A stretch of 64,000 nt of DNA. Origin: Ruegeria atlantica (lineage in GTDB: Bacteria > Pseudomonadota > Alphaproteobacteria > Rhodobacterales > Rhodobacteraceae). The stretch lies in the NCBI RefSeq assembly GCF_013032505.1, contig NZ_WQCG01000003.1, forward strand, positions 124,001-188,000. The letters run 5' to 3'. Positions within the stretch are counted from its first letter, which is position 1. Each line of letters starts with the position of its first letter. Below the pieces are notes generated by a model, which was not told where the DNA came from, did no database searches, and saw only the letters and a list, made by a program, of their open reading frames with translations. The position numbers and the translations under genes were made by a program. This document shows, piece after piece, positions 2,594-41,660 of the stretch.

Positions 2594-4787
2594 TTTCACT
2601 CTGAGCAAAGACGCAGACGGCGTCGCCATTATTACCTGGGACGTGCCCGGGAAAACCATGAACGTGATGTCCTTTGATGGGCTGGCGCAACTGAGCGATT
2701 GCATTGATCAGGCGCTGGCGGATGAAGATGTCAAAGGCATCGTCATCACGTCAGGCAAGGAAGGGTCATTTGCTGGGGGCATGGACCTGAACCTGTTGGC
2801 AGTGATGAAGGAACAGGCGGGCGACAACCCGGCAAAAGGTCTGTTCGAGGGCACGATGCAAATGCACGCCCTGCTGCGCAAGATCGAGATGGCGGGCATG
2901 GATCCCAAGACCAAGAAAGGCGGTAAGCCGATTGCCACCGTTCTGCCCGGCACTGCAGCGGGCATCGGTATGGAATTGCCGCTGTCCACGCACCGCATCT
3001 TTGCGGCCGAAAACCCCAAGGCGAAATACGGCCTGCCCGAGATCATGGTTGGCATCTTCCCCGGCGCAGGCGGCACCACGCGGATGGTTCGCAAGGTTGG
3101 CGCGATTGCGGCAGCTCCGCTGTTGCTGGAAGGCAAGATGCTGGACGTCAAAAAAGCCAAGGGCGCGGGTTATATTGACGAGATCGCAGCCGACCCGATG
3201 GCCGCAGCCAAGGAATGGGTGTTGAACGCCAAGGATGCCGATCTGGTCAAACCTTGGGACGCGAAGGGCTATAAGATGCCCGGCGGTGCCCCTTACCATC
3301 CTGCAGGCTTCATGAACTTCGTCGGTGCCTCGGCGATGGTGAACGGCAAGACCCAAGGCGCATTCCCTGCTGCCAAAGCTTTGCTGAGCGCGGTCTACGA
3401 AGGCGCGCTGGTCGATTTCGACACGGCGCTGAAGATCGAAGCGCGTTGGTTCACCTCCGTGCTGATGAACCCCTCTTCGGGTGCGATGATCCGTTCGCTG
3501 TTCCTGAACAAGGAAGCGCTGGAAAAAGGCGCTGTGCGTCCGGCGGGTGTTCCGGATCAGTCGGTCAAGAAGATCGGTGTTCTGGGTGCGGGCATGATGG
3601 GGGCTGGTATCGCGCTGGTGTCGGCTCAGGCCGGTATGGAAGTGGTTCTTGTGGACCGCGACCAGGAAGCTGCTGACAAGGGCAAGGCCTATACCGAGAC
3701 CTATCTGGACAAGGGCATGAAGCGCGGCAAAGTCACGGCTGAGAAGAAAGAGGCCATGCTGGCCCGCATCACCGCGACCCCGGATCTGGACAACCTCAAA
3801 GGCTGTGACCTGATCATCGAAGCTGTCTTCGAGGACGTGGGCGTCAAGGCCGAAATGACCAAGAAGGTCGAGGCGATCATCCCCGAGGACTGCATCTTTG
3901 CCTCGAACACCTCGACTCTGCCGATCACCGATCTGGCCAAAGCATCCGTGCGTCCGGATCAGTTCATCGGCATCCACTTCTTCTCGCCGGTCGAGAAGAT
4001 GTTCCTGGTCGAGATCATCAAGGGCAAGGAAACCGGTGATCGCGCGGTGGCCAAGGCGCTGGACTATGTGCGCCAGATCCGCAAGACGCCGATCGTGGTC
4101 AACGATGCACGCTTTTTCTATGCCAACCGTTGCATCATTCCTTACATCAACGAAGGTTTGCGCATGATCACCGAGGGCGTCAGCCCAGTGTTGATCGACA
4201 ACGCCGCGCGTCAGTTGGGCTTCCCCGTTGGGCCAATCCAGCTGAATGATGAGACTTCGATTGATCTGGGTGCCAAGATTGCTCGCGCGACCAAAGCCGC
4301 GATGGGCGATGCTTATCCGGAAAACCCGGGCGACGATCTGATCTTCTGGATGGAGGAAGAGGGTCGTCTGGGACGCAAAGCAAACGCGGGCTTCTTTGAC
4401 TACGACGAAAAGGGCAAGCGCACCGAATACTGGAAAGGCCTGCAAGAGAAATACCCGCATGCAGAAGACCAGCCTGATCTGATCGAAGTTCAGGAACGTC
4501 TGATGTTCGCTCAGGTTTTGGAAGCGGTCCGCGCGCTCGAAGAAGGCGTTCTGGAAGATATCCGCGAAGGTGACGTGGGCGCGATCCTTGGCTGGGGCTT
4601 TGCCCCTTGGTCAGGTGGGCCGCTCAGCTGGCTGGACATCATCGGTACGCCCTACGCGGCCGAGCGCTGTGATCAGTTGGCTGCGCAGTATGGCGAACGC
4701 TTCGCCTGCCCGCCGCTGCTGCGCGAGATGGCCGACAAAGGTCAGAGCTTCTATGGCCGCTTTGATCCCGAAGCGAAGGCTGCTTAA
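2586..4787 (+). CDS. fadJ: fatty-acid oxidation complex subunit FadJ (enoyl-CoA hydratase/3-hydroxyacyl-CoA dehydrogenase)
   Basis: A 733-residue bifunctional enzyme. Residues 5-190 are a crotonase domain that hydrates enoyl-CoA (oxyanion-hole segments SFAGGMDLN and GTAAGIGME). Residues 315-490 are the NAD-binding part of 3-hydroxyacyl-CoA dehydrogenase (GVLGAGMMGAGIA, SNTSTLPITDLA, GIHFFSPVEKM). The C-terminal dehydrogenase domains follow. The ATG at 2586 is preceded by TTGGAG at six bases; TTG 2574 and ATG 2580 are in frame but coincide with that ribosome-binding site. Together with the thiolase two genes upstream it can perform the last three steps of beta-oxidation. A strong hairpin follows the stop. 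Confidence 0.94.
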   Translation: MTDFTLSKDADGVAIITWDVPGKTMNVMSFDGLAQLSDCIDQALADEDVKGIVITSGKEGSFAGGMDLNLLAVMKEQAGDNPAKGLFEGTMQMHALLRKIEMAGMDPKTKKGGKPIATVLPGTAAGIGMELPLSTHRIFAAENPKAKYGLPEIMVGIFPGAGGTTRMVRKVGAIAAAPLLLEGKMLDVKKAKGAGYIDEIAADPMAAAKEWVLNAKDADLVKPWDAKGYKMPGGAPYHPAGFMNFVGASAMVNGKTQGAFPAAKALLSAVYEGALVDFDTALKIEARWFTSVLMNPSSGAMIRSLFLNKEALEKGAVRPAGVPDQSVKKIGVLGAGMMGAGIALVSAQAGMEVVLVDRDQEAADKGKAYTETYLDKGMKRGKVTAEKKEAMLARITATPDLDNLKGCDLIIEAVFEDVGVKAEMTKKVEAIIPEDCIFASNTSTLPITDLAKASVRPDQFIGIHFFSPVEKMFLVEIIKGKETGDRAVAKALDYVRQIRKTPIVVNDARFFYANRCIIPYINEGLRMITEGVSPVLIDNAARQLGFPVGPIQLNDETSIDLGAKIARATKAAMGDAYPENPGDDLIFWMEEEGRLGRKANAGFFDYDEKGKRTEYWKGLQEKYPHAEDQPDLIEVQERLMFAQVLEAVRALEEGVLEDIREGDVGAILGWGFAPWSGGPLSWLDIIGTPYAAERCDQLAAQYGERFACPPLLREMADKGQSFYGRFDPEAKAA

Positions 4788-28793: not shown

Positions 28794-30740
28794 TCACGCC
28801 AACATGCTTTGCATCGCATCATCGGTGCTTGCAATCTCGGAAGGCGTAAGGTCCGATTGGGCCTGAGCAATAGCGTTTTCGCCAGCCGCTGCTGTCTCTT
28901 CCATAAGTATGGCAATGGCTTCATTGGCCAACTCAGAAGCGTCTGGCACTTCAGGGATGTCCAGCAACTCAGCCTGGTGCAACAGCAGTTCCGAATACTC
29001 GCCACCAGCCGCCATGACGGTTGAATCGACACCAACCTTGGTGACGTTGGCCGCATTCAACAGCGCGTTTCCGGCACCGTTGACCACCGCATCAACGGCG
29101 GCAGCACCATCAACCGAAAGATCGTCCTGATCCTGCAGCAATGTAACCTGTTCGACCGAGTTGATCTGCACCAGATCCCCTTCGATCTTCAGTACGCGGA
29201 TCAATTCCATACCGGCATAGTCGGGATTGGATGTCAGAGCGTCCTCAAACGCTTCGCGATCAATCTGCTGCAGCGGCATGGCCTCGGCATGGGCCATGTC
29301 CAGCTCTTCAACCGTGTCTTCGCCGGTCGTCGTCAGAGAAGCCTGGTTCATGACCAGATTGTCGTCACCTTCTTCCGGCGTGTTGCCATTTCCATATACG
29401 TCGTCATCCAACAACGCGATGGTCTGGTGCAGCATATCGACCGAAACCATGTTTCCGCCGATCATGATCAGATCATAGAAGTTACCCAACTGAACGATGT
29501 TGGTCACGTTGGACAAGACGTTGTCACCCAGCGTGAACAAGCTGGTCGAAGCTGAGATTTCCGTGCTGATTTTGTCGATATCAGTGGCGTCGATCACCTG
29601 CTTTATAAAGTTCGTGACCCATAAATCGCCTTGTATCCATGTAACCGAGACAATCGGATCCGCACCCGGCTCCGCTACACTGTCGTCTTGCCACCATTCT
29701 TCGCTGGATTCCGTCCCGATATATGAGGCCTGAACCACATTGGTATCGCTTTGAACGCCGGGGCCACCCTGATCGATGTCAGAAACGACTGCCACCTGGC
29801 TGACCACCGTAAGGTTAACGGATTTTCCGCCCACTGCGATAACAGGAGCATCCACCCATGCCACCGTGATGGCGACTTGGTTCACGGCGAGGTTTCCGCC
29901 CGCGATAACTGTGTGGCCCTCGCCGAACTCATCGTCATCCGAACGATCCCATTCGGCCGGCATCATGTCCGGCGCATCATTCTCTTCTTCGTCTTCATCT
30001 TCAGTCTGATGGTGCGCCGGCAGAAGGTCGTTCCAGTCCGGGATTTCTTCGACGACTTCGCCATTCACGATAACGCCCAGCGCGTCCTCGCCGTGGAACT
30101 GGTGGATGGTTACGCCTTCGATTTGAGAAATCATCGGCGACTGCATCTGATCAGCCAGGCTTTCGAGGTATTCCAGCGACTTATAGTCTTCAATGTTCAA
30201 AGATGGCGTTGCAATTGCATGCATCGACAAGGCGACATCCAGCATCTGCTGGCCTTGCGCAATCTGGATTTCGACATCGCGGAAATCGCCATGCCCAACC
30301 ACGTCGTTGTCGCTCATGACAATTGTCTGGAAGTTATAGGTTACGGCTGATCCGATGATGAGCGGCGGGACCTGTGGGTCCAAAATCAATATAGCTGTCT
30401 GCGCTTCACCAAACTGCGCATCGGGGATGTATGAGGCTGGTCCAAAAGCCTGACCGGAAAACATCTCGCTCGTTTCAAGTGGCCCATCAGGTATGGGCGG
30501 CAGGGGAAGATCAGGAGGCGGCGGCAGAAGTTTATACGGAAGTGGTTCGTACTGACCCGGATCGAGTTTCAGATCTGCCTTGACCTTGATGGTGATCGGG
30601 TCTTCGAGTTCGTCCAGATCGTTCTTGCGCCGTAGCGCGGTAAATTCTTCGTACTGCTCCCGCAGACGGACTTGTTCAATAGTAAGCTCAAAGGTTCCAA
30701 CAAAATGCGCAATCGTTTCTGTAATACTGTCGAGAGACAT
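28794..30740 (-). CDS. acidic repeat-containing probable type I secretion substrate
   Basis: A 648-residue, strongly acidic protein with no signal peptide or transmembrane helix. After a charged N-terminal part and a Pro-rich linker (PPPPDLPLPPIPD, near residues 73-86), the rest is made of beta-type repeats. One pattern is GDLxxxNxxxQVxxxxD (IQGDLWVTNFIKQVIDATD, IEGDLVQINSVEQVTLLQD); another is NxxxNxAxV (NLVMNQASL, NALLNAANV). No RTX nonapeptides are seen. Position between an exporter and a Gly/Asp-rich protein suggests secretion by that exporter. The function is unknown; a surface-matrix or anchoring role is inference. About 128 bases separate it from the upstream gene. Confidence 0.7.
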   Translation of the reverse strand: MSLDSITETIAHFVGTFELTIEQVRLREQYEEFTALRRKNDLDELEDPITIKVKADLKLDPGQYEPLPYKLLPPPPDLPLPPIPDGPLETSEMFSGQAFGPASYIPDAQFGEAQTAILILDPQVPPLIIGSAVTYNFQTIVMSDNDVVGHGDFRDVEIQIAQGQQMLDVALSMHAIATPSLNIEDYKSLEYLESLADQMQSPMISQIEGVTIHQFHGEDALGVIVNGEVVEEIPDWNDLLPAHHQTEDEDEEENDAPDMMPAEWDRSDDDEFGEGHTVIAGGNLAVNQVAITVAWVDAPVIAVGGKSVNLTVVSQVAVVSDIDQGGPGVQSDTNVVQASYIGTESSEEWWQDDSVAEPGADPIVSVTWIQGDLWVTNFIKQVIDATDIDKISTEISASTSLFTLGDNVLSNVTNIVQLGNFYDLIMIGGNMVSVDMLHQTIALLDDDVYGNGNTPEEGDDNLVMNQASLTTTGEDTVEELDMAHAEAMPLQQIDREAFEDALTSNPDYAGMELIRVLKIEGDLVQINSVEQVTLLQDQDDLSVDGAAAVDAVVNGAGNALLNAANVTKVGVDSTVMAAGGEYSELLLHQAELLDIPEVPDASELANEAIAILMEETAAAGENAIAQAQSDLTPSEIASTDDAMQSMLA

Positions 30741-30868: not shown

Positions 30869-33517
30869 TTACACGTCAGTGTCGTCGCTGTTGTGGGTTG
30901 CGGTCATCGCGCCACCAACCATGGTCGTATCGACCGAGTTACCAAGCACGTTGGCACCCATGACGATCGACTGGTTGAATGCCGATGTGTCCACCACGGC
31001 CGCTGCCGAAGCATAGGACTCACCGTTGACGATACCGTCTCCGGCATTGCCCGAGCCCCACGATCCAGCGTCACCGCCAGCACCGCCAGCACCCGAGTAT
31101 GCACCCGAGGCCGCGCCACCATCGACGTCAGCGCCGTAGGTTTCACCACCGTTAGCCGTGCCTGCTGCACTGCCAGAGGTTCCACCGTATCCGGCACCGG
31201 CACCGCCGCCGCCACCGACACCTGATTGTGCTGCACCAGTGGCGCTGCCCGTTCCGGTCGAGGTTGCGTCGTTGTCGGACATCGCGTCACCGCCATACCC
31301 GGCAATGGCCTCTGCCATGCTGTCAGCCGAACCATCAGTGTCAGCTTCCGAGAAGACGTCGGACATTCCACCGTCACCGGCGGTGTTCACCGCATCTGCA
31401 GAACCGGCACCTGTGCCCGTGGACGTCGCGTCCTGCTGGACAGCACCGCCGCCTCCACCAACACCGTCAGCGGTCGCAGTACCGGTACCATTGGACTGTG
31501 CCCAACCATCGACATCGTTGGTTCCACCGTCACCGGCATTGTTTTCCGCACTCTGGTTGTTGTCGGCTTCACCGTTGGCGTCGCCTGGCGATTGTGTAAC
31601 GACCGGACCTTTGGCGTCCTGATCACCTACGCCCTGAGCATCGGCTTGCGAGTCAGCTTCACCGCCGTCTGCACCAGCATCGCCTCCGGCACCACCGACA
31701 CCAGCTGCGCCTGTGCCGTCGCCACCGTCGCCGTTGCCACCGTCAGCTGCACCGCCGACACCTGTAGCACCGGCACCGCCGACACCAGTACCACCGGTAC
31801 CCGTACCGCCTGGGCCGTTGCCACCGTTGGCAGCGCCGCCAACGCCAGTAGCACCGTCACCACCGTCGCCGTCGCCGCCATCACCACCAGGGCCGTTGCC
31901 GCCGTCACCAGCACCACCAACACCAGGGTTACCACCATTGGTGTCACCACCGCCGTTGCTTGCGCCAGCTGCGCCATTGTTCTGACCAATCAGACCGTTC
32001 TGCTGGTTCAGAGCTGCAAGCGCACCGTCGACTTGACCGGACGTTCCGCCAGTTCCGTCGCCGCCGTCACCGTCGCCGCCGTCACCGTCGCCGCCTTCGT
32101 CACCGTCGCCGCCGTCACCGTCGCCGCCATCGCCTTCACCGGCAGTTACTTCACCAGCGTCGCCGTCGCCACCTGGGCCATTGCCGCCGTCACCGTCGCC
32201 GCCGTTGCCGCCGTCGCCGTTGCCGCTGTCGGCATCACCGCCGTCACCGCCGTCGCCATCGCCGTCCCCGCCGTCGCCGTCGCCGCCATCAGCGTCACCA
32301 CCGTCAGCATCTGCATCTGCTTCCGAACCTGCACCCGCAAGGCCAAGACCGATGTTACCACCAGATGTGGAGTCACCGTTTTCGGCTTCGGTTTCGCTTT
32401 CGTTCAAAGCACCGCCAAGGTTGCCAGCCAGACCGCTTCCGCCGTTTGCGTCATCGGCTTCCGATTCATTGTCAGCTTCGGAATCGACTTCAGTGTCGGC
32501 TTCGGAGTCGTTGTCTCCACCTTCCGAAGAACCGTCATTGCTTGCTCCGGAGAGACCAAGCCCAACGCCAAGTCCGATCGAACCAGCGTTGCCGCCGTCG
32601 CCACCATCGCTATCGATGTCGACTTCGGTTTCGCTTTCATTTTCGGCATCCGATTCAGCGTCTGCGTCGCCACCTTCACCGCCGGTGCTGTCGCCATCCG
32701 CATCTGCTGCAGAATGTCCGACTCCCAGACCGAAGTTCAGTGCGTCACCGGAGTCACCACCGTTTCCGCCATCGCCGTCACCGTCGGCATCACCGCTATG
32801 ACCACCAAAGGCCGCTGTGTGCCCGCCGTAGGTTTCGCCATAAGCGTCACCGGCAGTGGTCTCGCCACCATCGCCAGAGTTTCCGCCATCAGCACCTGCG
32901 CTGATGCCGTCGCCAGAAGTTGCGTCGCCGCCTTTGGCATCGCCCATCTGCTTGAAGGTACCGTCGTTGTTCACTTCGGCGTTTTCAAGAGTATCGTCAT
33001 CGCTCAGGTTGGCATACTGGCTGTTGATCGCCGACATTGCGGTTGTTGTACCGCTCATGTCGATGTTCAGGTTCAGATCATCGCCGGGATCGTAGTCGAT
33101 ATCGCCACCAGCGGTGATCACATCACCAAATTCTGAACCGTTAGCGTCGATGTCAACGACATCATCATCGCTCGGCATACCTTCTTCGCCGAAATCGATG
33201 TGAACCCAGTTTGAGTTGTCATTTTCGTTGTCACCGTTGGTCTGACCTTGACCCTGGTGCTGGCCTTGATCCTGACCCTGGCCTTGTTCCTGGTCCTGAC
33301 CTTGGCCTTGCTCATTGTCGACCTTGGTCTTCTGAGCTTGCTCTTGATCCTGACCTTGGCCCTGTTCGTTGTCGACCTTGGTCTTCTGTTCGGTGTTTTC
33401 AAGTTCGATGTCGGCTTCTTTAATGTTGACATCTTCTACCGGAATATAGACATCGCCGGTGTTAATTTCTTCTACGTCTACAACGTTGTTCTGATTGTTG
33501 TTACGTCCACGTGACAT
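30869..33517 (-). CDS. giant Gly/Asp-rich repeat protein, probable secreted matrix or adhesin protein
   Basis: An 882-residue, extremely acidic, low-complexity protein. Residues 44-96 hold Gln/Glu repeats. About 200-800 is dominated by GGDGDGG, GGNGG and SEAD-type acidic repeats with almost no aromatic or Cys residues. The C-terminus ([18 protein letters not shown], then [16 protein letters not shown]) resembles modules of the neighbouring 648-residue protein. No signal peptide is present; the classic RTX consensus is not clear. The ATG at 33517 is eight bases after GGA; an in-frame GTG at 33529 is an alternative. Proximity to a type I exporter suggests secretion, possibly with divalent-cation-dependent folding. 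Confidence 0.7.
31690..32330. repeat. GC-rich short-unit repeat tract encoding Gly/Asp repeats
   Basis: On the plus strand the sequence is a degenerate array of CCGTCACCGTCGCCG-type units, most regular between about 32045 and 32310. Units are multiples of three bases and keep the frame open in the gene on the minus strand. The array also keeps other frames open, giving long false reading frames. Such a tract is prone to length change. Confidence 0.75.
33281..33388 (-). repeat. tandem 18-residue (54-base) duplication
   Basis: Residues 44-61 and 62-79 of the Gly/Asp-rich protein are near-identical copies ([17 protein letters not shown] plus Ala or Gly), followed by a degenerating QGQGQDQG tail. 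This is a recent in-frame duplication inside the gene. Confidence 0.75.
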
Positions 33518-34117
33518 ATTATTTTCCACTTATAAAGCGCACGGGCCATCATTCATCTACAAAACGGCTACTGGCGCGGTTGAACTAGGAAAAACACACA
33601 GGCGCAAAACGCGCTTGGTGCGGTCTCGTTTAGTGAAGTATCTCCCACCCTCCTTTCTCGGCTTAGCCGACTTCGTGTCTGCAGAAATGGCTCGCGTTAA
33701 TGCGCGATTCGCCGACACTTCAGGAATTATGACTTCAAAATAGAAGCAGCCTCATGTTTGCAGGCCGAGGGCGAGCTGAATAGCTACCCTAAAGCACTAG
33801 AACGCTCAGTGCCTTGTTTTCATTGCCCTAAAACTTCAGTGGATGAAAAAGCCCGCTTTGCCAGCCTGCGCGGCAAGAATGAAACCAGCAGTTTAGGAAA
33901 GCTAACGATTTCTTCTACTTAAGCGGGAAGCGGTATAAGTAACCTAATCGAAAGTATTAGAACTGTTTTGACACGATTACCGACGGCGTTGATGAAACTT
34001 GTACTTTCCGCTATAGTCACAGCTCTATACTGTTAATCACTTCAAATTCTGCACTACGTGTACTGGTTACAATTTCGCCGCATTTTTTCGCGGTGTGGGT
34101 AAATTAAGGGGGGAATA
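33518..34117. other. 600-base divergent promoter region
   Basis: This AT-richer gap separates the secretion locus (minus strand) from the LuxR-type regulator (plus strand). I found no supported gene or RNA. A frame at 33495-33743 has no ribosome-binding site and overlaps the start of the repeat gene. Long upstream regions are common for matrix genes under complex control, so regulator sites are likely here, but none can be named. Confidence 0.5.
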
Positions 34118-36583: not shown

Positions 36584-37549
36584 CTAGTCTCGCATAGCCC
36601 TTGCCATCCCATAAGAACAGGAACCACAGTATCCGTTGTCGAGCATAGTATACTCTTCCAGCGTGAGACTCGTCCCGCAAATCGAACAGGATTCATCCAG
36701 AACGAAACCGCAATCGAAACACATGTTGACCTCACTGTTCTGCACGAAGGTGTTGCTGGAGTCACAGTATGGGCAATCGTGGATTACTGGTTCTAGGCCC
36801 TCTTTTGCGGCGATATAGTCATCCGCCCCGAAAGAGGCGACGACAGCCATCGCAATAGAGGCCTCAGAGCTATGCACTTCTCCACATTGAGCGCACTTGG
36901 CGTTGAAGTTCTCTGGGTTTTTATTGGTGGGGTCTTCTTGGCCGACTAGAGATGATCCGCAGTTGTCGCAAATCATTCTATCAATGCCAGTAACTTGCTT
37001 AGGCCAATTGATAGACGCTAGCTCACTTAGGCAACGCTTTTGAACCTTTTCATATGCTGTGCGCTTTTCAAGAATAACGTCCCATGCATCACCAAGTTCT
37101 TCTTTCGGATCCTCTTCAAGAATATCGAAGAAATCGACTACCATCGGGAATGAAGAGGCAATTGCTTCCGCCAAAGCCTCAACAGGTTGGGTAAGGTGGT
37201 GGTGCTCTGCTTCGTTTCTGAGTTTTCGAAGCTTATCAAAGTCACCCTCTGGCCATTTGAGACCAAAATCCTTGAAACGGCCCTTCATTTCCTGAAAATC
37301 GACGGTCTTCCATCCGACCACGGCGATGTTCACACCTCCAGCGCCGTCCGAGACTGGCTTTACCTTTGCACCGATTACGTGCAGTGGGTCCGCTACTGGG
37401 GCAGCACGCACCAAACACTCTTTGGCAAGTAAAAGAACACCGGCGTAGTAGTTGCGAGCCGCCGAAATCATTCGGTCGTCTTCACCAGTTTCAAAATCCT
37501 CTATCCCTAAACGAATTGAAGTAACGGCATTCTCAAACAAAGCAGACAC
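36584..37549 (-). CDS. HEPN-like domain plus three zinc ribbons (candidate effector)
   Basis: 321 residues. The N-terminal 145 are helical and carry RNEAEH (Arg111, His116), fitting the R-x4-6-H active site of HEPN ribonucleases. The C-terminal part has three CxxC pairs of pairs (Cys194/197 with 219/222; 259/262 with 277/280; 288/291 with 308/311), that is, three zinc ribbons that could bind nucleic acid. The GTG start follows GGAG at six bases. It begins 24 bases after the reverse-transcriptase stop and is probably cotranscribed. I infer a toxic RNase effector controlled by the reverse transcriptase; no homologue is known to me. Confidence 0.65.
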   Translation of the reverse strand: MSALFENAVTSIRLGIEDFETGEDDRMISAARNYYAGVLLLAKECLVRAAPVADPLHVIGAKVKPVSDGAGGVNIAVVGWKTVDFQEMKGRFKDFGLKWPEGDFDKLRKLRNEAEHHHLTQPVEALAEAIASSFPMVVDFFDILEEDPKEELGDAWDVILEKRTAYEKVQKRCLSELASINWPKQVTGIDRMICDNCGSSLVGQEDPTNKNPENFNAKCAQCGEVHSSEASIAMAVVASFGADDYIAAKEGLEPVIHDCPYCDSSNTFVQNSEVNMCFDCGFVLDESCSICGTSLTLEEYTMLDNGYCGSCSYGMARAMRD

Positions 37550-37573: not shown

Positions 37574-38629
37574 CTAGAAGGGGATATTCTCCTTTTCGTT
37601 ATCGGGATCAACCCTACTAATCTCCTGAGCCGCAGCTTTCTCTTCTGCTAGTCTTGCTTTGTTTTCACGCCGTGCCTTTGAAAGCTTTTGACGAATGGAG
37701 TTCATTTCGCTGGCAAGTTTTTGACCGCGATGACTGGAGGCCCCCACAACCGCTCGGATACCGCCTAAGTGCGAAAGAAGTCGGACCGAGCAAGCTTCCA
37801 TTTCTTCTTGTGTCTGCGCGGCTTTTAGTTCGGTCCAAAGTTCCTTTGAACGCAACTCAAGCCTCTTCGGTACAATCAGATTCGCACCAACAATCCCAAT
37901 TCCGGTAACAAAGACTGGCCGATTGCCGGTCTGGGTTCTGAGTTTGTGAGATTTGAGACCGCTCTGCGCCACGAGTTTCCTCACGTCGGCACGAAAGTTT
38001 CCCGTGATCCTCAAACCAGAAATGGTCAAATCATCAACCCAAACTGTGTAGCTTAGGTCATCTTCAACGCAACGATCCGCAATTCTGTCGAACATCGGGC
38101 GGTGTACCAGCGAAGCAAGCACGGGCGTTAGAGGTGAGCCGAAACAGGCGCGGTCGTCTGCTGTCGCAACGTGTGCGATAAGCCCCGCCACATCCGCCTC
38201 CATCTTAAACTGTTCCATTAGCGAGTTTCGGATCATCTGCCGTGTAGTCGAGGGGTAAAACTGTTTCAGATCGAGTGTGAGAAACTGCGCCGCTTCCAGA
38301 TGTGCAACTGCATTGTCTCGCTGAGCACGTCCCTTACGTGGACTCATGAGGTAACTAGGTTGGGCAATCTTGGACAGATGGTACTTTAATCGTTCGTGTA
38401 CGGAACGTAGCCTTCCTTCCGGATAGACCAAATCACGCGTTTTTCCATTCGTCTCGATAGTTCGCCGGACTAGAAATTGCTCCTTATAACGCGGTGTCGC
38501 CAGTCTATTTAAATCGTCCTTGCTTTCCCGAACCAGCTCAGCAATGTCTCGTTGCGAGGGTTTTTGAGCAAATGGGGATCGTTCAAGAGGATATTTCTCT
38601 CCGGACTTGAGCCTATACCGTTTCCGCAT
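37574..38629 (-). CDS. retron-type reverse transcriptase
   Basis: 351 residues, the usual retron RT size, with no extra domain. RT motifs in order: LTLDLKQFYPS (117-127, first catalytic Asp), GSPLTPVLAS (164-173), WVDDLTISG (catalytic DD at 199-200; Val replaces the common Ala), and VTGIGI (241-246), the VTG element typical of retron RTs. No maturase or endonuclease domain is present, which argues against a group II intron. The ATG at 38629 lies inside the XRE gene with GGAG eight bases upstream; a longer start at 38677 is less likely. The C-terminal tail is charged. Confidence 0.85.
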   Translation of the reverse strand: MRKRYRLKSGEKYPLERSPFAQKPSQRDIAELVRESKDDLNRLATPRYKEQFLVRRTIETNGKTRDLVYPEGRLRSVHERLKYHLSKIAQPSYLMSPRKGRAQRDNAVAHLEAAQFLTLDLKQFYPSTTRQMIRNSLMEQFKMEADVAGLIAHVATADDRACFGSPLTPVLASLVHRPMFDRIADRCVEDDLSYTVWVDDLTISGLRITGNFRADVRKLVAQSGLKSHKLRTQTGNRPVFVTGIGIVGANLIVPKRLELRSKELWTELKAAQTQEEMEACSVRLLSHLGGIRAVVGASSHRGQKLASEMNSIRQKLSKARRENKARLAEEKAAAQEISRVDPDNEKENIPF

Positions 38630-38942
38630 CAACTGGCTCCACAGGCTTGAGCTTTCGAAGAACGCGCAACGCTGCATCAGCGACTATCAATCGCCCTTTG
38701 CGAACAGGCCCTTGCCCTTCGATCTCCTCTGCGAAGAACATCAATTGAGATTTCTTGACTCCGAGGGCTACGGCATACCGATCAAGTGTTTCGAGCGTAA
38801 CAGACTTCGTTCCACGCTCTATCTCTGAAACCATGGCTTGCGACATACCCAAGGCGTCTGCCATCTCTTGCTGGGAATAGCCCCAATACATACGAGCAAG
38901 CGCAAGTGCTTCGTTGATCATCTGTTTGTGAGGATCAGCCAT
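38613..38942 (-). CDS. XRE-family helix-turn-helix protein
   Basis: 109 residues. Residues 10-65 are a Cro/C1-type HTH (GYSQQEMADALGMSQAMVSE). A short C-terminal region of about 40 residues follows. GGA lies eight bases before the ATG. It overlaps the reverse-transcriptase start by 17 bases. It could autoregulate the operon or, as in some retrons with small HTH partners, be part of the retron complex. Confidence 0.82.
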   Translation of the reverse strand: MADPHKQMINEALALARMYWGYSQQEMADALGMSQAMVSEIERGTKSVTLETLDRYAVALGVKKSQLMFFAEEIEGQGPVRKGRLIVADAALRVLRKLKPVEPVDAETV

Positions 38943-38978
38943 TTGAGTTTCCAGTAAGGGCTATAAAGGGGTCATCAC

Positions 38979-39104
38979 TTACTCCCACCATGACATCAAC
39001 AGGTCCAGGACCCGAAGGATGTTGACGACAGCGATCCAAATGTATCGCCGCCAAGATGGTTTTTTGCGATGCCGCCGCTGGCGATGAACTTTCTTTTCTC
39101 GCAT
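38979..39104 (-). CDS. 41-residue cationic single-span membrane peptide
   Basis: The peptide begins MREKKVHRQRRHRKKPSWRR, with more than ten basic residues, then a hydrophobic segment of about 20 residues (YIWIAVVNILRVLDLLM) and ends SWWE. GAGGAG lies eight bases before the ATG, an excellent ribosome-binding site. It is followed after 36 bases by the XRE gene in the same direction. The layout resembles small membrane toxins or holin-like peptides, but no homologue is recognised. The same DNA can also fold into hairpins, so it could be part of a structured RNA instead. Confidence 0.5.
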   Translation of the reverse strand: MREKKVHRQRRHRKKPSWRRYIWIAVVNILRVLDLLMSWWE

Positions 39105-39124
39105 GCTTACTGCTCCTCTGTTCC

Positions 39125-39289
39125 GGCCAACACAAGCGTTGGCCCCCGTGGGAACGAGGAATGCGATCAGCGACGTTTGACCCCTTCCATGCCGCGCCCG
39201 GTCCCGGGCGGGCGCGGCGCGCTGCCACGGTCCATCCAGAGACACAGGAACTAGACGAAGGCTCTAAGCCTTCACAGGGCCTCTGGCCC
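39125..39289 (-). ncRNA. candidate structured RNA (possible msr-msd) upstream of the reverse-transcriptase operon
   Basis: Read on the minus strand, four perfect stem-loops follow each other: GGGCC/GGCCC with a 3-base loop (39289-39277), GAAGGCT/AGCCTTC (39273-39257), a ten-pair GC stem GCCGCGCCCG/CGGGCGCGGC (39218-39191), and GGCCAAC/GTTGGCC (39144-39125). Short loops followed by a longer stem beside a retron-type RT is what msr-msd looks like. I could not find convincing flanking a1/a2 repeats, so this is tentative. Confidence 0.3.
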
Positions 39290-39431
39290 CAGCCTTTGTC
39301 GGGTTCTGCACATGCAAGTTTCATCACGCCTTCAACGTAGGCGGTGGCGAGGTCGACTTCAAGTCAATTATTGCTCTCAGCGATAATTAAATTTTCGAGC
39401 CAAAAAATGAAGCGATTCGCTGCAACAGGAG

Positions 39432-39571
39432 TGTCACGGAAAGTGACATGTGAGTTTTTCCGAAATTTCAAATGTGCGTTTTTCCAGTTCGCAACTTGAG
39501 TGCCTCAAGAAACGTTGAGTTCGAACGCTCAAAATGTGCGTTTTTCCAGATTCCCCGATGTGCTATTTTCC
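39432..39571. repeat. array of direct and inverted repeats between divergent island genes
   Basis: Four copies of ATGTGCGTTTTTCC-like sequence start at 39448, 39472, 39534 and 39558: two pairs, each with a 24-base period. Interspersed are inverted repeats TGTCAC-N5-GTGACA (39432-39448), CTTGAG-N3-CTCAAG (39495-39509) and TTGAG-N8-CTCAA (39515-39532). This resembles operators or iterons. The region 39290-39689 holds no other supported gene. Confidence 0.6.
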
Positions 39572-39689
39572 AAAATTCGTGTCATTTATTCTAACCTTTT
39601 CAGTAGCTTAATCTTCGAACTATTCTGATCGTATCCCTCGGACGTCAGCCGAGAGAGTACTGAAGTCAGCAAATAAGGAGAGTTCGAAC

Positions 39690-39971
39690 ATGTCAAACAT
39701 CGCCAATAGCTCAAACGTTATCCCATTCCCTACAGCAAAGGGCGTTAATCCCTGCGCCCGGCCTGATTTGAGCCAATACGAAGACCATCTTCGCAATTTC
39801 GACCTGACGTCTAAGCAACGAAAAGAGTTTCTTGATGCCCTTTGGACTCTGCTCTCGGGATTCATCGACTTGGGCTACGGACTGCACCCGACCCAGTTCC
39901 CCGACATACCTAATGACCTTGATGCAACAACAGTCGGTTCAATTGAACAGCATTTCAAAGATGCGGCTTAG
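39690..39971 (+). CDS. small protein upstream of the serine recombinase
   Basis: 93 residues, soluble, opening with SNVIPFPTAKG; the rest is helical and acidic. AAGGAG lies eight bases before the ATG. It is followed after 82 bases by the recombinase gene in the same direction. A role as a recombination directionality or accessory factor is possible from position only. Confidence 0.65.
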   Translation: MSNIANSSNVIPFPTAKGVNPCARPDLSQYEDHLRNFDLTSKQRKEFLDALWTLLSGFIDLGYGLHPTQFPDIPNDLDATTVGSIEQHFKDAA

Positions 39972-40053: not shown

Positions 40054-41622
40054 ATGGACAAAAATGATGTTGAACCAACAAAACAGAAATGCGCAATCTA
40101 CGTACGCGTATCCTCTGCGAAACAAGTTAACGAAGGGTCCGGTCTATCTAGTCAGGAGCAAAGCTGCCGCTCGTACGCGAAAGAGAACGGCTATGAGGTC
40201 GTAGAAGTCTTCAGTGACATAGTCTCGGGTACGGCAGGGGAACGTACCGGTACGAAAGCGTTGGTTCGGTACCTCAGAATGCATCGATCCGAAAAGCTAG
40301 TTGTGGTGGTGGATGATATTGATCGCTTTGCGCGCGACGTGTCCGTCTATAGTGATTTGCACAAGCAAATTGTTGCCGCAGGTGCACGCCTTGAAAGCCC
40401 AAAGTTCAAAATGTCTGAGGAAGCACATTCGATATTCGAACTGAAGCTTCGCGTTCTGTTGGGAGAGTTGGAAGTCGGAAAAAACAAAGAACGTTCACGA
40501 GACAGGGTCATTGCGCGTCTCCAAACAGGGTATTGGACATTTTCAGCCCCAGTTGGCTACGAATACAAAAGACGTGGTCCTGAGGGCAAAGTTCTTGTTC
40601 GTGTTGAGCCAACGGCATCAATTCTTGCCGAAGCGCTTGAGGGCTATGCAAGCGGTCGCTTTCAATCCCAAGCCGAAGTTAAGCGATTTCTGGACTCCAA
40701 AAGCGAGTTTCCGAAGGACTACAGGGGTACTGAAGTCAAATATGACAGAGTAAAACAGTTTCTGACGAACTTGCTGTATGCCGGTTATCTGGAACGGCCG
40801 GAGAGAAACATTCCATTGACCAAAGCAGTGCATGAGCCGCTCATCTCCTATGATACTTACCTGATCATCCAAGACCGCCTCAAATCTTCTGCGGTCGCGC
40901 CAGCAAGAAAAGACATCGACTTGGACTTCCCACTGCGTGGATTCATCAAATGCGCAAAGTGCGGTCGAAAACTCACGTCCTGTTGGTCCAGAAGCGGAAC
41001 CGGGGTCCGATATCCGTATTACCTTTGCCAATATCGTTCCTGCTCAGAGAGGGGAAAGTCAGTTCCTCGCGACCGACTTGAAGGCTACTTTGAAACGCTT
41101 CTGCAGTCTGTAGAGCCATCGCCCGCTACATTTGAAGTCGCTGAGAGAGTATTTCGTGATGCTTGGGAGCGGCGAGGAACGTGGGCAAAGACAGAAGCCG
41201 GACGGCTAAAGCAACGCATCACCCAAATTGAAAAAGAGTGTTCGAACTATCTCAGTCGTGCCGCTCGAACTCAAAATGACGAATTTGCTGCGGCATATGA
41301 ATCCAAAGTTATGGGATTGCGAACTGAAAAGGCCAAAATCGAAGCAGAAATCGACAGAATGACATTTCCAGAGCGTTCATTTGATGAAATGTTCGAACTC
41401 GCCATGCAATTTCTCTCAAACCCCTTTAAAATATGGGAGAAAGCTAGCTGTACGTTGAAACGAGTAGTCCTTAGGCTCGTATTTTCCGGCCCAATAGAGT
41501 TTGACAGAACTGATGGTGTTCGAACTCCAAATACTACCTTACCTTTCAAGGCGTTAGGCTTCATTGAGAGTAGTGATTTGAAAGTGGTGCCCCCACACGG
41601 ACTCGAACCGCGGACCTACTGA
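40054..41622 (+). CDS. large serine recombinase (site-specific integrase)
   Basis: 522 residues. The resolvase domain (13-160) has the nucleophile Ser20 in YVRVSSAKQ, and VDDIDRFARD carries conserved Arg and Asp residues. A Recombinase domain spans about 170-280, a zinc ribbon with CAKC and a later Cys pair about 305-340, and a coiled coil about 385-430. The frame runs into tRNA-Thr on the opposite strand, so the last dozen residues (ending PPHGLEPRTY) are read from the tRNA antisense strand. This fits integration at the tRNA 3' end creating the present C-terminus. It probably mobilises the island. Confidence 0.9.
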   Translation: MDKNDVEPTKQKCAIYVRVSSAKQVNEGSGLSSQEQSCRSYAKENGYEVVEVFSDIVSGTAGERTGTKALVRYLRMHRSEKLVVVVDDIDRFARDVSVYSDLHKQIVAAGARLESPKFKMSEEAHSIFELKLRVLLGELEVGKNKERSRDRVIARLQTGYWTFSAPVGYEYKRRGPEGKVLVRVEPTASILAEALEGYASGRFQSQAEVKRFLDSKSEFPKDYRGTEVKYDRVKQFLTNLLYAGYLERPERNIPLTKAVHEPLISYDTYLIIQDRLKSSAVAPARKDIDLDFPLRGFIKCAKCGRKLTSCWSRSGTGVRYPYYLCQYRSCSERGKSVPRDRLEGYFETLLQSVEPSPATFEVAERVFRDAWERRGTWAKTEAGRLKQRITQIEKECSNYLSRAARTQNDEFAAAYESKVMGLRTEKAKIEAEIDRMTFPERSFDEMFELAMQFLSNPFKIWEKASCTLKRVVLRLVFSGPIEFDRTDGVRTPNTTLPFKALGFIESSDLKVVPPHGLEPRTY

Positions 41623-41660
41623 TTACAAATCAGTTGCTCTACCAGCTGAGCTATAGGGGC
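41585..41660 (-). tRNA. tRNA-Thr (anticodon TGT)
   Basis: The reverse complement is a 76-base class I tRNA with encoded CCA. GCCCCTA pairs with TGGGGGC (one G-U), D-arm AGCTCAGCTGGTAGAGC, anticodon stem-loop CTGATTTGTAATCAG (TGT), T-arm with GGTTCGAGTCC. It is complete, so the island insertion preserved it. Confidence 0.95.

Follow-up and report, generated by a model that had tools for sequence, protein, structure and literature searches.

A type VI retron transcript from Ruegeria atlantica that probably carries a locked mini-ORF for a toxic membrane effector

The 64,000-nucleotide stretch of Ruegeria atlantica DNA analyzed here (the window) harbors, on its minus strand, a compact series of elements centered on a reverse transcriptase (RT) gene. 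In the direction of transcription, an operator-like palindrome and promoter-like boxes precede a structured leader and a 41-aa mini-ORF with its own Shine-Dalgarno (SD) sequence, 3′ of which follow a helix-turn-helix (HTH) gene, the RT gene, and a gene for a 321-aa CxxC protein:

39368-39386, minus strand: operator-like palindrome TTATCGCTGAGAGCAATAA, adjoining the −35 box on its 5′ side, one mismatch to TCGCN5GCGA
39334-39367, minus strand: putative promoter read from the sequence, with −35 TTGACT (39367-39362) and −10-like TACGTT (39339-39334)
38979-39104, minus strand: mini-ORF of 41 aa, MREKKVHRQRRHRKKPSWRRYIWIAVVNILRVLDLLMSWWE, recognized by its SD sequence and by conservation
38613-38942, minus strand: XRE-type HTH gene (HTH_VI), probable autorepressor; PADLOC HTH_VI, 4.3e-25
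37574-38677, minus strand: type VI retron RT; PADLOC RT_VI, 5.3e-55 (next best RT_III-A, 1.9e-30)
36584-37549, minus strand: 321-aa CxxC zinc-ribbon-like protein, directly 3′ of the RT gene; PADLOC candidate PDC-S64, 1e-38

These features mark the locus as a type VI retron and, judged by its sequence, a new member of that type: the RT falls in the type VI clade, the HTH gene lies directly upstream of the RT gene and overlaps its start by coordinates, and a conserved structured RNA and a small auxiliary ORF are found upstream. The QRDNAxxH, WVDDLTISG, and TG blocks, which we take to be retron RT motifs, are kept across the six RTs compared. Because most homologues begin near residue 17, the RT probably starts at 38629 rather than 38677. 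The structured leader RNA would presumably be the template of this enzyme. Rfam returned, at the gathering threshold, two tRNAs only in the whole window, and no RNA family in 38500-39800 up to an E value of 10.

The surroundings of the retron hold a large serine recombinase gene (40054-41622, plus strand) whose 3′ end overlaps a tRNA-Thr gene (41585-41660). The retron may thus be part of an integrated island; a clear att repeat was not found. Elsewhere in the window, an 886-aa ORF (30869-33529, minus strand) that is very rich in Gly, Asp, and Ala repeats adjoins a 648-aa ORF (28794-30740).

Loci with the same layout recur, at 44-67% RT identity, on plasmids of Leisingera, Agrobacterium vitis, and Rhizobium rhizogenes (L022-L024), in three family genomes (L025, L026, L044), and on two IMG/VR contigs (L042, L043); a third such contig (L041) breaks off where the HTH gene begins. 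More distant relatives, at about 25-33% RT identity, reside in P2-like and other phages, in bacterial genomes, and on plasmids, from Aeromonas to the cyanobacterium Scytonema. Among viral contigs, an RT search with a single protein retrieved none, and one with an RT alignment (A1) retrieved three loci; a scan of genome contigs for relatives gave one distant locus. A model of the leader (R1) scored above 200 bits, under strict filters, in 3 of 394 family genomes (G000, G192, G361), the same three that carry a close RT. Weak matches of 22-35 bits in G068, G298, and G359 have neither an HTH nor an RT match within the 3.1 kb examined; the best of them, in G298, is a decayed leader stub (L057, 1484-1546), sharing 81% identity with the window across 63 nt and lying about 300 nt from a tRNA-Lys gene. 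Decay is also evident in G927, where a leader remnant (L045, 3869-4061) accompanies a broken RT with no HTH match. Among 24 distant type VI loci, R1 matches four weakly (L018, L034, L046, L048; E 0.003-0.02), each match either ending no more than 2 nt from the start of the mini-ORF or reaching 2 nt into it, and that in L018 having the expected strand and position. It misses the other 20, and it matches none of six loci with other RT types.

The leader drew attention through a sequence-only reading that described four consecutive stems of 5, 7, 10, and 7 bp just upstream of the RT operon and likened them to msr followed by msd. The four stems are present as described, between 39289 and 39125 of the minus strand, in what appears to be the leader RNA of a retron with a type VI RT and HTH gene. 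That interval is too narrow, the element extending from about 39327, the presumed transcript start included, to about 38959. Its RNA segments are as follows:

39300-39303, minus strand: a1-like segment CCCG, inside an invariant AACCCG; pairs with 39148-39145
39276-39290, minus strand: stem-loop 1 (msr part), GGGCC/GGCCC, 39289-39285 with 39281-39277
39257-39273, minus strand: stem-loop 2 (msr part), GAAGGCT/AGCCTTC; double changes at 6 of 7 pairs
39191-39218, minus strand: long GC hairpin (probable msd), GCCGCGCCCG/CGGGCGCGGC; all cells paired, double changes at 2 of 10 pairs
39178-39186, minus strand: x, AAGGGGTCA; pairs with y on the far side of the mini-ORF (swap tests)
39151-39159, minus strand: anti-SD strand, CCTCGTTCC
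39145-39148, minus strand: a2-like segment CGGG, located within the masking hairpin's internal loop (swap test and alignment A3)
39125-39144, minus strand: fourth stem, probably the top of the SD-masking hairpin, GGCCAAC/GTTGGCC; double changes at 4 of 7 pairs
39113-39124, minus strand: SD strand of the masking hairpin, GGAACAGAGGAG, containing the SD sequence
38966-38974, minus strand: y, TGACCCCTT; pairs with x (swap tests)

By itself, the folding energy of the leader is only mildly unusual. The interval 39125-39289 folds at −82.3 kcal/mol against −71.8 ± 4.5 for dinucleotide shuffles (z −2.3, 7 of 200 at least as good), and 39306-39105 reaches z −2.6, with 1 of 200 shuffles at least as good. 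A z of only −2.3 would accord with chance hairpins in a GC-rich spacer, an explanation made scarcely credible by comparison with homologous loci, as the sequence-only reading had proposed. In alignment A3, comprising nine close leaders and a model of the window's four stems plus three newly proposed helices, the covariation score is 0.270 against 0.160 ± 0.015, none of 500 shuffles scores as high, and partners slid out of register reach at most 0.113. Pairing extends to 92.2% of cells (86.3 ± 0.8 when shuffled), and 17 of the 43 pairs are changed on both sides, where 8.7 ± 2.0 are expected; the count of further pair types, one of the five measures, shows no excess (25 vs. 26.5).

The individual helices contribute unequally to this signal. 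The five outer pairs of stem 1 are invariant in A3 and hence uninformative, and its innermost pair fails in four of nine sequences. The SD-masking stem has two lower parts, where 82% and 76% of cells pair and double changes occur at 2 of 4 and 2 of 5 pairs; the a1/a2-like helix is paired in 94% of cells with no double change. Distant type VI loci, where some of the stem-loop 1 anchors were chosen by hand, repeat the series of stem 1, a G(U/C) spacer, and stem 2, and in their folds a GC-rich hairpin comes next. Taken together, these comparisons assign the four hairpins to the RNA of a type VI retron. The likeness to msr and msd suits stems 1-3; the fourth stem is probably not msd but the top of a hairpin that masks the SD sequence of the mini-ORF.

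For the distant loci, where alignment is unsafe, pairing was assessed by swap tests, which compare the pairing of a strand with its own partner to its pairing with partners from other loci. These tests covered 28 nonredundant loci, 25 of them with a stem-loop 1 anchor (L021, L047, and L049 being dropped). The SD-masking stem averages −20.7 kcal/mol with its own partners against −16.2 ± 0.6 with swapped ones (z −8.0, 25 loci). The SD core can pair in 24 of the 25, a survey that describes positions and has the swap test as its control, given that RNAduplex finds some pairing for any two strands; those 24 loci also have the a2-like segment on the 3′ side of the anti-SD strand, and L031 is without SD pairing. 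Counting against the masking model, the minimum-energy fold of the window joins the SD strand to another stretch. Across the mini-ORF, helix x.y gives −30.1 against −26.0 ± 0.7 (p < 5e-5, 28 loci); its ungapped form yields z 5.2 over 25 loci and, when each clade is represented by a single locus (19 loci), z 4.7. Locus by locus, it ranks among the best 5% of swaps in 3 of 28 only.

With SD masking the strongest covarying feature and the mini-ORF enclosed by x.y, the hairpins might serve solely in translational control of the mini-ORF, as in a type I toxin-like mRNA, while the RT uses another RNA. We consider this quite unlikely: the tandem of stem-loop 1, G(U/C), and stem-loop 2 and the GC hairpin are kept though unneeded for SD masking, and among the 394 genomes intact leaders occur only alongside an RT.

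The flanking a1/a2 repeats, which had not been found in the sequence-only reading, are now represented by a candidate, a short helix suggested by comparison between loci. Its partner is the 5′ strand of the masking hairpin, and in the window it amounts to CCCG/CGGG, 4 bp. The swap test gives z 4.2 over 25 loci and z 3.5 with one per clade, for a leader segment 6-17 nt before stem 1 that was picked by scanning 12 leader windows, on which pick the claim rests. The signal is limited to windows near −18 to −4; three of the 12 carry signal (z 4.2, 3.7, and 2.1) and two are low (z −1.9 and −2.7). Broad searches for an a1/a2 helix were not significant (p 0.13 and 0.15, 0.10, 0.11, 0.29), and a control pairing the leader with the region 3′ of stem-loop 2 gave p 0.81.

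The mini-ORF, unreported in the sequence-only reading, makes up the 3′ part of a longer frame of 88 aa that opens with a GTG at 39245; its ATG start was picked for its SD sequence and for conservation. Of 45 loci examined, 36 are testable, eight being without an HTH match (L011-L016, L045, L053) and one (L041) being cut at the HTH start; repeats of loci already included (L002-L004, L027, L036-L040) were left out. Across all 36, which range from alphaproteobacterial loci to P2-like phages and the plasmid of a cyanobacterium, a mini-ORF of 33-67 aa stops 24-57 nt short of the HTH gene; its start was chosen by the analyst from the candidates at each locus. Under a fixed rule, it is found in 26 of the 28 nonredundant loci (L001 and L006 miss the rule), compared with 2.1% in shuffles.

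This position before the HTH start would also suit a leader peptide, one that couples or attenuates HTH translation without an activity of its own. We regard this alternative as very improbable in view of evidence for selection on the protein and the cationic-hydrophobic design common to the mini-proteins. Six of the nine close loci have a second frame that is also stop-free, so an open frame is by itself weak evidence there. Values of dN/dS were calculated for nine close pairs, of 36 possible, and are defined for eight, seven of which fall at 0.21-0.52: L025/L026 0.25, L025/L044 0.52, L026/L044 0.21, window/L022 0.31, L023/L024 0.41, L023/L025 0.25, and L024/L025 0.50. The eighth, window/L025, is 0.79, and L025/L043 has zero synonymous changes and thus an undefined ratio. 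Because dS exceeds 1 in four of the pairs, L025/L026, L025/L044, L026/L044, and L024/L025 weigh most. These values indicate that the mini-ORF is under protein-level selection.

Across clades the mini-proteins share character rather than sequence. They have a mean net charge of +7.9 and 2.75 Trp each; the mini-protein of the window has an Arg/Lys-rich N-terminal half and a Trp-rich helix of 23 residues. Their most hydrophobic 18-mer scores 1.51 against 0.59 ± 0.54 in shuffles, hydrophobicity being weak in 4 of 28 (0.67-0.96). AlphaFold2, run on six sequences, renders the window protein as one helix at residues 18-40, with a mean pLDDT of 92-94 over residues 21-40 and 77 overall. PADLOC holds RT and HTH models for type VI retrons; for the 10 of 36 mini-proteins searched, none of its families matched and Pfam gave chance-like rows only. 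PHROGs 15287 and 5826, of unknown function, match the phage-type mini-proteins L028 and L031, and L051 weakly. The mini-protein is most likely the toxic, membrane-acting effector.

The most serious alternative, itself unlikely, accepts the retron RNA as proposed and makes the mini-protein an RNA- or msDNA-binding partner, with the HTH protein or a third gene as effector. The N-terminal half is net positive in 27 of 28 mini-proteins (neutral in L005), and Arg-rich N-terminal halves are found in RNA-binding peptides. Third genes do exist, PDC-S64 here and a TIR-domain gene in L033, L046, and L050, and either could be the effector in its own locus; no third gene runs through the whole set of relatives. 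For a mere RNA-binding partner, it would also seem unusual to have a conserved hydrophobic helix and a masked SD sequence, and the conserved palindrome at the HTH protein's own promoter is regulator-like. The PDC-S64 gene is not among the genes listed beside the RT in three close plasmid relatives. The TIR-domain genes lie directly 3′ of the type VI RT on Celeribacter, Microvirga, and Pseudosulfitobacter plasmids, perhaps as an interchangeable third gene. On the Aeromonas caviae plasmid of L031, a Hok/Gef family-annotated gene (3904-4056) lies beyond the type VI RT on the other strand and is probably an unrelated plasmid toxin-antitoxin gene.

The palindrome TCGCN5GCGA precedes the leader exactly in 17 of 25 loci and with at most one mismatch in 22, compared with 0.12% and 2.6%, respectively, in mononucleotide shuffles. 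TTGA or TTGT follows within 10 nt in 18 of those 22, a count made without a control. Given a conserved palindrome in this position, the HTH protein is more likely an autorepressor than an effector; we consider it probably an autorepressor on the strength of this motif. The idea of msDNA as a decoy for the HTH protein was considered and is unsupported, the leader showing no enrichment of the operator motif (3 of 25 loci have it with at most one mismatch, against 13% in shuffles). Upstream of the retron promoter, three iteron-like direct repeats around AAATGTGCGTTTTTCCAG occupy 39446-39549, two identical and one at 78%, with start-to-start distances of 24 and 62 nt.

We therefore favor, at a probability of just under 0.6, a type VI retron transcript with a locked mini-ORF for a toxic membrane effector. 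A promoter under the palindromic operator, probably bound by the HTH protein, would produce one RNA that carries, in order, the a1-like strand, stem-loops 1 and 2 (msr), the GC hairpin (msd), x, the masking hairpin, the mini-ORF, y, and the HTH and RT genes. Toxin mRNAs of the hok type are locked by fold-back pairing; by analogy, helix x.y and the masking hairpin would lock the mini-ORF off. The RT, the noncoding RNA, and msDNA, if made, would keep the mini-protein off, and phage interference with any of them might cause it to be made or freed, stopping the infected cell.

How the lock would be opened can be sketched tentatively. In canonical retrons, copying by the RT begins from the a1/a2 helix and proceeds 5′-wards, and both locking strands would therefore be copied first. 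The window order, 5′ to 3′, is x (39186-39178), the anti-SD strand (39159-39151), and the a2-like segment (39148-39145); x lies further 5′ than the anti-SD strand in the window and its close relatives, at the start of the stretch predicted to be copied. Were this stretch copied, with RNase H acting as well, neither x.y nor the SD-masking stem would survive and the mini-ORF would be freed; in the alternative direction, an RT stalled there would hold it shut. That reverse transcription or its stalling switches translation of a built-in toxin, with no binding of an effector protein needed, is a speculative proposal that we rate as somewhat unlikely in either direction.

We know of no toxin in type VI retrons. 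In retrons with protein effectors, the RT and msDNA are thought to hold back a toxic effector; here, by contrast, the effector would be a 41-aa peptide encoded on the retron RNA's own transcript. Type VI retrons have been described as having small auxiliary proteins (PMC8541194, citing Mestre et al., 2020), and in two phages the same paper notes short ORFs that precede the HTH gene (PMC8541194). The locus shares with type VI retrons the RT clade, an HTH gene overlapping the RT start, an upstream structured RNA, and a small auxiliary ORF, and the portions of the published description available to us hold nothing against membership. The SD-masked mini-ORF, x.y, and the operator are absent from those portions, and in the open-access literature neither these features nor a toxin role for type VI retrons was found in print. 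As far as those sources extend, the small ORF as such is already known, and the value of the present analysis lies in the shared, apparently locked architecture. The conserved mini-ORF with its masked SD sequence supplies, within the retron transcript, a concrete candidate effector together with a control mechanism, and suggests how type VI retrons, as bacterial anti-phage elements, may keep a poison in check.

There is a likeness to the type I toxin mRNAs of the hok/sok kind, which also combine a small hydrophobic peptide, a masked SD sequence, and long-range pairing around the ORF. The likeness is one of features, with an antisense RNA in those systems and an RT and retron RNA here. A masked SD sequence and long-range pairing on the mRNA of a small protein, the marks of a hok-like lock, are found at this locus as pairing, from which a translational block would presumably follow. 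If the anti-SD strand truly lies in the msDNA template, retrons and hok-like locked toxin mRNAs would be joined in one device.
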